Origin: Phycisphaerae bacterium
GTDB lineage: Bacteria; Planctomycetota; Phycisphaerae; Phycisphaerales; Phycisphaeraceae
Direction of reading: 5' to 3'
NCBI GenBank assembly: GCA_030425705.1
Contig: JAUHZU010000002.1
Coordinates: 434,001 to 498,000 of the forward strand
DNA: 64,000 nucleotides
This document shows positions 2,425-5,468 of the stretch, piece after piece (positions within the stretch are counted from its first letter, which is position 1; each line of letters starts with the position of its first letter). Position numbers and translations under genes: made by a program. The notes beneath the pieces are model-generated. The model was not told where the DNA came from, did not search any database, and saw only the letters and a list, made by a program, of their open reading frames with translations.

Positions 2425-3579
2425 TCAGGCGTAGAACCGCTTGATCGTGTCGACGACGTGCGTGAGCTGTTCTTCGCGGAGCTCGGGGAAGATGGGCAGG
2501 GCGAGCACCTCCTGCGCCGCGGCCTCGGCCACGGGGAAGTCGCCGCGCTTGTGGCCCAGGTAGTCGAAGCACTTCTGTTCGTGCAGGCACAGCGGGTAGT
2601 ACACCGCCGACCCGACCCCCGCCGACCCGAGGTACCGCTGCAGCTCGTCCCGCTGCTCGGCGCGGATGACGTACTGGTTGTAGATCGAGCGGTTGCCCTC
2701 GGCGATCACCGGCGTGGTGACCTGCTTCACCTCGGCGAGCTGCGCATCGTAGAACGCGGCGTTGGACCGCCGGCCCTCGTGCCAGCTTTCCAGGTGCTTG
2801 AGCTTGACCGACAGGTACGCCGCCTGCAGCGTGTCGATGCGGAAGTTGCCGCCGACCTCGTCGTGGAAGTACCGCTCGTGCGCGCCGTGGTTGCGGAGCA
2901 TCTTCAGCCGCCGGGCGACCTCCTCGTCGTTGGTCGTGACCAGGCCCGCGTCGCCGGCGCCGCCCAGGTTCTTGGAGGGGAAGAAGCTGAAGCAGCCGCA
3001 GTGGCCCAGCGACCCGGCCAGCGCGTCGTGCTGCGCCGCGCCGATCGCCTGCGCCGCGTCCTCGACCACCTTCAGCTCGTGCTTCTCCGCCAGGTCCAGG
3101 ACGTCGTCCATGTCCGCCATCTGCCCGAACAGGTGCACGGGCATGATCGCGCGGGTCTTCTCGTTCACCACCGACTCGATCTGTGTCGTGTCGAGGTTGA
3201 ATGTCTCCGGGTCGATATCGACGAACACCGGCTTGAGCCCGCGGCGCTGGATCGACCCGCACGTCGCGAAGAAGGTGAACGGCGAGGTGACCACCTCGTC
3301 GCCGGGGTTCAGGTCCATCGCCATCAGCGCGAGGATCAGCGCGTCCGTCCCGCTGCTGCAGCCGACGGCGAACTGCGTCCCGCAGTAGGCGGCGGCCTCT
3401 TCCTCGAACTGCGTGACCGCGGGGCCGTTGACCATCACCTGGCTGTCGAGGATCTGCTCGAAGACGGCCAGGACCTCCTGCTTGAGCGGGGCGTACTGGG
3501 CACACAGGTCAAGCAGCGGGACGTCGAGCTGCGGCGGCGCGGGCTTGGTGTCGGTGGTCTTGGTGCTGGCGGCGTTCAC
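2425..3579 (-). CDS. DegT/DnrJ/EryC1/StrS family aminotransferase
   Basis: PLP-dependent aminotransferase that typically aminates a nucleotide-linked keto-sugar. The N-terminal part reads VPLLDLCAQYAPLKQEVL, the cofactor region includes EDAAQAIGA, and the Schiff-base lysine lies in FSFFPSKNLGGAGDAG. At 384 aa it has the family length. GTG at 3579 is preferred: AGGAG lies 7 nt upstream, while an in-frame ATG farther upstream adds an arginine-rich stretch. With rfbA next to it (convergent), a dTDP-amino-sugar product is plausible, but the substrate cannot be read from the sequence. Confidence 0.9.
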   Translation of the reverse strand: MNAASTKTTDTKPAPPQLDVPLLDLCAQYAPLKQEVLAVFEQILDSQVMVNGPAVTQFEEEAAAYCGTQFAVGCSSGTDALILALMAMDLNPGDEVVTSPFTFFATCGSIQRRGLKPVFVDIDPETFNLDTTQIESVVNEKTRAIMPVHLFGQMADMDDVLDLAEKHELKVVEDAAQAIGAAQHDALAGSLGHCGCFSFFPSKNLGGAGDAGLVTTNDEEVARRLKMLRNHGAHERYFHDEVGGNFRIDTLQAAYLSVKLKHLESWHEGRRSNAAFYDAQLAEVKQVTTPVIAEGNRSIYNQYVIRAEQRDELQRYLGSAGVGSAVYYPLCLHEQKCFDYLGHKRGDFPVAEAAAQEVLALPIFPELREEQLTHVVDTIKRFYA

Positions 3580-3698
3580 GGCGGCGCTCCTGCGGGGTCG
3601 GGGGTGCCGGTGGCCGCGGCGCATGCGGGTCCACCCAGCCGATCAACGGTATGCGGGGCGGTCGGCCGCGTCAACGCACCACGCCCCGGCCGTCCCTC

Positions 3699-3704
3699 TA
3701 CACT
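3699..3704 (+). promoter_or_regulatory. -10 element TACACT, 6 nt before ATG (leaderless start)
   Basis: TACACT ends 6 nt before the ATG at 3711, so transcription would begin at or next to the start codon. No Shine-Dalgarno sequence is present. The -35 region is weak. Confidence 0.6.
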
Positions 3705-3710
3705 GCCCGC

Positions 3711-4382
3711 ATGAAAGACTGTGACACAGTCGCCTACCACGACTGGTACCGGCCGGACGAGCCCCCGCAGGCCGCGGCCGACCGGTTCTACGACGTCATG
3801 CGCCGCCGCCGGTCGGTCCGCATGTTCGCCGACACCCCCGTGCCCCGCGCGCTGATCGCGTCGCTGGTGCGTTCGGCCGGCAGCGCGCCCAGCGGCGCGA
3901 ACAAGCAGCCCTGGCGGTTCGTCTGCGTCAGCGACCCGGGGCTCAAGCGCCGCATCCGCGAAGGGGCCGAGGAAGAAGAACGCGCCTTCTATGCCGGCCG
4001 GGCCAACGAGCAGTGGCTCAAGGACCTCGCGCCGCTCGGCACCGACGAGGACAAACGCTACCTCGAGGTCGCCCCCTGGCTGGTCGTCGTCTTCCGCCTC
4101 ACCCGGACCGACGACGGCGGGCAGGTCTACTACTCCAGCGAGTCCGTCGGCCTCGCGGCCGGCCACTTCCTCTGCGCCGCGCAGCACGCCGGGCTCGCCA
4201 CCCTTACCCACACCCCCAGCCCGATGAACTTCCTCAGCGATATCCTCGGCCGGCCCAAGCACGAGCGGCCCTACCTGCTCATCCCCGTGGGCTACCCCGC
4301 CGACGACTGCGTCGTCCCCCGTGAGGCGCTGCACCGCAAGCCGCTGGAGGACATCATGGTGGTCGAGGCCGGCGACGCCTAG
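3711..4382 (+). CDS. Nitroreductase-fold flavoprotein, iodotyrosine deiodinase-like
   Basis: FMN enzyme of the nitroreductase superfamily, 223 aa. The flavin-binding RRRRSVRMFADTPVP (near residues 31-45) and SAPSGANKQPW are clear. Beyond the general fold it matches the iodotyrosine deiodinase branch: an acidic EEEERAFY stretch (Glu90-x3-Tyr94), then Lys115 in DKRYLEVAPWLVVVF, then VYYSSESVGLAAG and LGRPKHERPYLLIPVGYP. The Glu/Tyr/Lys trio corresponds to the active-site lid that clamps the iodotyrosine zwitterion in the animal enzyme. Reductive dehalogenation of a halotyrosine is therefore the best guess, with a generic nitroreductase as the alternative. There is no signal peptide. Monocistronic, divergent from the aminotransferase gene. 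Confidence 0.85.
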   Translation: MKDCDTVAYHDWYRPDEPPQAAADRFYDVMRRRRSVRMFADTPVPRALIASLVRSAGSAPSGANKQPWRFVCVSDPGLKRRIREGAEEEERAFYAGRANEQWLKDLAPLGTDEDKRYLEVAPWLVVVFRLTRTDDGGQVYYSSESVGLAAGHFLCAAQHAGLATLTHTPSPMNFLSDILGRPKHERPYLLIPVGYPADDCVVPREALHRKPLEDIMVVEAGDA

Positions 4383-4432: not shown

Positions 4433-4472
4433 GCCCGCCGATGCCCGGTGTTTCTGGTTGTTCCCGAGCGAG

Positions 4473-5468
4473 ATGGTTATGCGACGCATGAGTTGGCCGG
4501 CCCTGCTTGTCCTGATGGTGTTTGGCGTGGGCTGTTCGGCAACGCCGTCGGTCGAGGACGGCACGCTGTACCGCACCCTGCGCGGCGCGTCGGCGGCGGT
4601 GCTGAAGGACGGGCGGATCGCGGGGTCGGGGTCGTTCATCGACGGGCAGGGCACGTTCCTCACCGCCGCGCACGTCGTGCACAACACCGAGGACCGGGTC
4701 GAGCTCCTGCTGCACGACGGCACGGAGCTGCCGTGCACCGTTGTGGCGCGGGACCTGGGCGCGGACATCGTGCTGCTGCAGCGCGTCGATGCCGACGGCC
4801 AACCCCTGCCGACGCCCGCGGGCTGGCTGAACCTCGCGGCCGAGCCGCCCCCCGCCGGGGCCTCGGTCTACGTCTACGGGGCCCCCGCCATGTACCGCGA
4901 CCTCATGCTGCCCGGCCGGATCGCCGCCGACACCCCCCGCTACAACCACCAGGGCGCCAACGACTGCTACCTCCACTCGGTCAACCTCGCCGGCCCCACC
5001 CCGCCAGGCATCTCCGGCGGGAACTGGGTCGATGCCCGCGGCCAAGTCGTCGGCGTGCAGTGCTCGCACATCGGCTCGGAGTCCGCGACCACGGGCATGG
5101 CCTTCATCGCCCCGCTCAACGACATCCGCCGGCTCGTCGCCGCACGCACCGACCAGCCCGCCACGACGATCGGGGCACAGGTCGTCACGCTCTGGTCCCA
5201 GTCCTTCGGCTACACCAAACGCTTCCCCGAGGGCACCGTCGGCGTCGCGCTGCACCGCATCAAGGACACCGGCCCGGTCGCCGACGCCGAGGTCCCCAAG
5301 GACGTCGTCATCACCCACGTCAACGGCACGCCGACCCCGGACATCAACGCGTTCATGGACGCTGTCCGCGCCCACGCCCCGGGCGACACGATCGAGCTGT
5401 CGACCATCGCGCCCGACTCGCACGAGCTGAAGGCGTACTCCGTCACGCTCGCGGAGCTGGTGTGGTAA
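4473..5468 (+). CDS. Trypsin-like serine protease with PDZ domain, lipoprotein
   Basis: HtrA-like secreted protease of about 331 aa. It starts with a lipoprotein signal (ALLVLMVFGVGC, lipobox cysteine near residue 19). The catalytic triad is visible: His in FLTAAHVVHN, Asp in GADIVLLQ and Ser in TPPGISGGNW. A C-terminal PDZ-like region includes KDVVITHVNGTPTPDINAFM. Expected to sit anchored in the periplasm or outer membrane for protein quality control or regulated cleavage. The ATG at 4473 is chosen because GAGCGAG precedes it closely; the ATGs at 4479 and 4488 are alternatives. Convergent with the glycosylase gene. Confidence 0.85.
   Translation: MVMRRMSWPALLVLMVFGVGCSATPSVEDGTLYRTLRGASAAVLKDGRIAGSGSFIDGQGTFLTAAHVVHNTEDRVELLLHDGTELPCTVVARDLGADIVLLQRVDADGQPLPTPAGWLNLAAEPPPAGASVYVYGAPAMYRDLMLPGRIAADTPRYNHQGANDCYLHSVNLAGPTPPGISGGNWVDARGQVVGVQCSHIGSESATTGMAFIAPLNDIRRLVAARTDQPATTIGAQVVTLWSQSFGYTKRFPEGTVGVALHRIKDTGPVADAEVPKDVVITHVNGTPTPDINAFMDAVRAHAPGDTIELSTIAPDSHELKAYSVTLAELVW

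Follow-up and report, generated by a model that had tools for sequence, protein, structure and literature searches.

Does the gene at positions 3711..4382 (plus strand) of the window, the 64,000-nucleotide stretch of planctomycete DNA analysed here, encode an iodotyrosine deiodinase (IYD), or does its product belong with the ordinary nitroreductases? The open reading frame list, the Protein Data Bank (PDB) ranking and the PF00881 match delineate an IYD-type flavoprotein of 223 residues plus a stop codon. An alternative in-frame ATG upstream, at 3651, would give a protein of 243 residues, but the alignments of relatives such as L007, L008 and L009 begin at residue 1 of the 3711 start. The gene is divergent from a DegT/DnrJ/EryC1-type aminotransferase gene (2425-3624, minus strand), from which it is separated by an intergenic gap of 86 bp (3625..3710) that is presumed to be the promoter region. 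Downstream lies a trypsin-like/PDZ (HtrA-type) gene (4458..5468, plus strand), assigned with Pfam, its PDZ match being below the cut-off. The GC content at the three codon positions of the IYD gene (0.72, 0.48 and 0.94) gives it the codon pattern of a real gene. Comparison with its nearest relative, which comes from the same genus and is 80% identical at the amino acid level (dN 0.135, dS 0.72, NG86), indicates that the gene is under purifying selection. The source contig (C16) is part of a 4.1-Mb genome that carries two more PF00881 proteins; judged from their best PDB matches (2fre; 3bem and 1nox), these two resemble ordinary flavin reductases and nitroreductases most.

The window protein scores 76.8 bits with PF00881, which assigns it to the nitroreductase fold as a predicted flavoprotein. 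Its best match in the PDB is the IYD of Haliscomenobacter hydrossis, with an E value (3.1e-61) that excludes chance as the origin of the resemblance, followed by mouse and human IYDs (9.6e-47 to 1.1e-45). The top five distinct PDB sequences are all IYDs. Further down come the Thermotoga IYD (6.8e-25) and the first other nitroreductase (2.2e-15). The H. hydrossis enzyme (PDB ids 5ko7, 5ko8 and 5krd) is about 48% identical to the window protein, is similar in length and has the same lid residues and THTPSPMNFL motif, although it belongs to another branch of the IYD group. The mammalian IYDs (mouse, 3gb5 and 3gfd; human, 4ttb and 4ttc) carry an N-terminal membrane anchor and are about 40% identical to the window protein. 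The mouse enzyme keeps the lid E/Y/W/K residues, but the mammalian proteins have TTTPLNCG where the window protein has THTPSPMN. The Thermotoga IYD (6pz0), which we take to be that of Thermotoga neapolitana, shares the fold and the E/Y/K triad, but its identity is 31% and its lid is shorter in the alignment.

The initial annotation had recognised an IYD by a lid combination of Glu90, Tyr94 and Lys115 and by two flanking motifs, YLEVAPWLVVVF and GRPKHERPYLLIPVGYP. Both motifs are found in the window protein, the three residues are present at exactly those numbers in its 223-residue form, and HMMER alignments pair them with the E, Y and K of H. hydrossis, mouse and human IYD. According to a 71-row alignment and the structure model, the active-site lid comprises residues 86-120 (3966..4070, plus strand, as are all residues below) and is absent or dissimilar in nitroreductase and BluB rows. 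The triad is found in all 45 IYD-type rows of this alignment (the window, H. hydrossis, mouse and Thermotoga proteins included), in none of the 14 nitroreductase rows and in none of the five BluB rows.

Eight residues are invariant in a 33-row alignment of the window protein and the products of 32 of the 80 listed loci (L010 was omitted for its stop codon). These are the basic residues R33, R34 and R37 (3807..3821), which are expected to hold the FMN phosphate; Glu90 (3978..3980), a lid residue that presumably serves to hold the substrate by its amino-acid end; Tyr94 (3990..3992) and Lys115 (4053..4055); Trp102 (4014..4016), a lid residue common to the H. hydrossis, mouse and Thermotoga IYDs; and Thr168 (4212..4214), which the PDB alignment places at an IYD threonine position that we take to be the one near flavin N5. 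In a wider tally of 108 rows, in which some genomes are counted twice and the window three times and from which the paralogue L002/L005 is left out, E90, W102, K115 and T168 are present in 108 rows each and Y94 in 107, with one Phe. The position two before the lid Lys is Trp in the H. hydrossis, mouse and Thermotoga IYDs, whereas in the window protein it is Glu113, and in its relatives mostly E, P, D, A or S. Some relatives contain an odd-looking in-frame TGA; in L010, the one that was checked, it proved to be the normal stop codon, located one codon short of the end of the matched stretch.

In a maximum-likelihood tree of 71 proteins, the window protein falls into a 44-row group with the H. 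hydrossis and mouse IYDs (support 100/99). This group is nested in a 53-row group (100/98) that includes the Thermotoga IYD and, beside it, L123, a protein labelled nitroreductase. The long branches in this part of the tree were flagged as unsafe by the tree program. As the lid itself could drive the grouping, the tree was repeated without the lid columns on 59 rows, the 12 removed being L123, eight planctomycete rows and three E. coli proteins whose branches are very long. The group of the window, H. hydrossis and mouse proteins persists (99/96), and the IYD rows remain separate from those of nitroreductases and BluB (100/94), as they were in the full tree. The window protein is thus placed inside the IYD clade and not outside it.

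The AlphaFold2 model of the window protein (a monomer computed from 33 sequences without templates) has a pLDDT of 89.1 and a pTM of 0.87. Its top Foldseek match is MIT-bound H. hydrossis IYD (5ko8_B), with a TM of 0.86 normalised by query length and 48% identity across 220 aligned columns. IYD chains fill ranks 1-25, and a Geobacter nitroreductase comes next (7.9e-12). The first 15 are halotyrosine-bound forms, which rank above the FMN-only and 2-iodophenol forms; it is halotyrosine-bound IYD that the model matches best. AlphaFold2 was trained on such entries, and the Foldseek agreement is therefore support rather than independent proof. The PDB ranking, the trees with and without the lid, and the structure agree with the earlier view that the protein is an IYD homologue and not merely a nitroreductase. 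By sequence and predicted structure, it is a genuine member of the IYD family, and it is a sound new addition to an established family, not the first of a new kind.

A second IYD-like group is formed by seven proteins of the planctomycete family f29 (L113-L119). One of them, L114, matches the Thermotoga IYD best in the PDB (6pz0, 4.9e-27). At the triad positions all seven have D/H/K, i.e. Asp and His replace the lid Glu and Tyr, and the Lys and Trp102 are kept. Their join with the Thermotoga IYD is weak in both trees and is lost in the lid-free one (4% of bootstrap trees). None of the 15 f29 genomes that have a match in the phylum sample has one of the window type.

A scan of genome contigs confirmed at least 299 relatives of the IYD gene. 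The 80 loci listed are 60-75% identical; 72 of these listed matches bear planctomycete names, six are named only 'bacterium', one is from Proteobacteria and one from Actinomycetota. In a sample of 392 genomes of the phylum, 169 match at 1e-10 and 123 have a window-type gene (120 with matches better than 1e-50, plus three with fragments of 60% identity), which makes the gene ordinary in Planctomycetota. It is present in 138 of the 251 genomes of the order sample, in eight of 51 genomes of the window's family and in four of five genomes of its genus, the fifth being 70% complete. Outside the phylum, nine of 72,556 plasmid records have it (two each from Persicobacter, Deinococcus and Streptomyces; one each from Paraburkholderia, Nonomuraea and Aureibacter), and two phage records match distantly, with 25-26% identity. 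We found no literature that joins iodotyrosine deiodinase with planctomycetes, or with Thermotoga neapolitana, in a search that most subscription papers lay outside.

No conserved partner was found among the three genes on each side of the IYD gene at 83 loci (80 named contigs, the window, L141 and L142), where genes were called with the IYD gene forced in. The commonest neighbour family, a secreted-looking protein, occurs at nine of the 83 loci and a kinase-like neighbour at seven, both judged by eye; as some contigs end near the IYD gene, these counts are lower bounds. An HtrA-type (trypsin/PDZ) gene lies directly downstream on the same strand at four of the 83 (the window, L141, L009 and L085). 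The first three of these belong to one genus, and the HtrA-type neighbour is a lineage feature. The initial annotation had pictured a marine host that meets halotyrosines of algae or sponges. This was not borne out: no conserved neighbour points to organohalogen metabolism, and the records of relatives include groundwater (L063) and soil (plasmid records).

On the two Deinococcus plasmids (L134:4899-7341 and L140:4890-6740), a pyridine-nucleotide FAD oxidoreductase gene follows the IYD gene within about 100 bases. The two oxidoreductases, apparently of different subfamilies by Pfam, are candidate electron donors. The IYD copy of Deinococcus taeanensis (L140:4890-5549) has no counterpart of the region of the window protein that contains APSGANKQPW; the gene may have decayed, or the assembly may be wrong here.

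The host probably degrades tyrosine, as suggested by a block of genes for aromatic amino acid breakdown, seen at L162 (on another contig of the host, C21:96000-109000) and L163. Contig C21 encodes 4-hydroxyphenylpyruvate dioxygenase (HPPD) above cut-off, an HgmA_N-domain protein, an FAA hydrolase, a tryptophan dioxygenase and a 3-oxoacid CoA-transferase subunit; the block also holds a class-V aminotransferase-like gene (possibly kynureninase) and one of the HMG-CoA lyase type. A relative in the genus (G019) has a similar block, as judged by eye, plus a phenylalanine hydroxylase gene. With these genes, the host could make use of any tyrosine that an IYD sets free. Two other members of the genus (G016 and G017) have the IYD gene and no HPPD match.

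HPPD (TIGR01263) is present in 193 of the 251 genomes of the order sample, 122 of 138 with IYD versus 71 of 113 without. When the window's family is removed (38 genomes, assuming that all its genomes at least 85% complete were in the order sample), the counts become 120 of 131 versus 71 of 82 (Fisher p 0.26). Within that family, HPPD occurs in two of 51 genomes, both of the window's genus and both with IYD (p 0.02), a co-occurrence that may reflect a single event. Across the phylum sample, HPPD is found in 17 of 18 IYD genomes of the window's order versus five of 13 without IYD (p 0.0012), and outside the order, IYD is found in six of 17 HPPD genomes versus 105 of 361 genomes overall (p 0.59). 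The statistical link follows kinship, and we do not accept it as evidence that IYD and tyrosine catabolism form a joint pathway.

The host genome has four PF04820-type genes, two on contig C14 and two adjacent on C16 (L166:260-3679, C16:10059-13478), although PF04820 also matches five of 14 control genomes, including E. coli. The first of the adjacent genes (frame 260-2101 of L166) contains a WIWFIP motif, an instance of WxWxIP, which we take to be a halogenase mark; two PF04820-type genes that were checked lack WxWxIP. Its best PDB matches are flavin-dependent halogenases (8zop at 1.9e-48, then PltA and CmlS). This halogenase-like gene shares its contig with the IYD gene, which is ~426 kb away. 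As a lead only, the cell might thus make halogenated phenols itself.

The window protein is predicted to be a soluble FMN-dependent reductive dehalogenase of the IYD family, a reading to which we assign a probability of roughly 0.8; most likely, it is a reductive halotyrosine dehalogenase. In known IYDs, the lid closes on the amino-acid end of the substrate, and a threonine near flavin N5 supports one-electron steps. By analogy, a homodimer of the window protein would bind FMN, and a 3-halotyrosine (iodo, bromo or chloro) would stack on the flavin. The amino and carboxyl groups of this putative substrate would draw the lid (E90, Y94 and K115) shut. The flavin, reduced by a presumed electron donor and tuned by T168 for one-electron steps, would then remove the halide to yield L-tyrosine, which could enter the homogentisate pathway encoded elsewhere in the genome.

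The IYD fold and lid could also serve another physiological substrate, such as a halophenol, a halotyramine or a different phenol that has an amino-acid end; turnover of iodotyrosine would then be an in vitro activity only. The wide spread of the gene, in 123 of 392 planctomycete genomes and on plasmids of Streptomyces, Nonomuraea, Paraburkholderia and Deinococcus, calls for a substrate commoner than iodotyrosine, and the Trp before the lid Lys is not retained. On the other hand, all 33 rows keep the residues that presumably read the amino-acid end, an argument in favour of an amino acid that bears a halophenol, and we consider a substrate of another kind rather unlikely.

It is far less probable that the protein only resembles IYD and works as an ordinary flavin reductase or NAD(P)H nitroreductase. 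Membership of the broad PF00881 family would allow it, and five of the nine IYD-like plasmid hits (H2, H4, H6, H7 and H9) are annotated as 'nitroreductase family protein', the other four being unannotated. Against it stand the trees, the lid, and the PDB and fold rankings; nor does any NCBIfam model reach its cut-off with the window protein, those of the NfsA and NfsB type scoring 21.3 bits versus 223 and 18.8 versus 227, in agreement with the tree. The best NCBIfam match is BluB (TIGR02476, 55.8 bits), which would make the protein a dimethylbenzimidazole synthase. This score is far under the 150-bit cut-off, whereas five proteins of the phylum above the cut-off score 217-270 bits and form a separate starred group in the tree. 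Score and tree already contradict a BluB-type enzyme, and its chance is negligible.

As a single gene, the IYD-type gene of the window is ordinary. IYD recycles iodide in the human thyroid; to our knowledge, the role of bacterial IYDs is unclear. PDB titles show that bacterial IYDs have solved structures with bound substrate. A tentative and on balance unlikely extension of the halotyrosine dehalogenase reading is that planctomycetes possess a widespread halotyrosine salvage enzyme, of which the Asp/His group is a variant with another substrate. Such an enzyme would dehalogenate the bromo-, chloro- or iodotyrosines that arise through hypohalous acids or halogenases. If so, tyrosine would be returned, in this host to the homogentisate pathway, and the phylum would act as a general halotyrosine sink. 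The common occurrence of the family and its strictly conserved lid in the sampled Planctomycetota make them a tractable group in which to ask which substrate keeps IYD.
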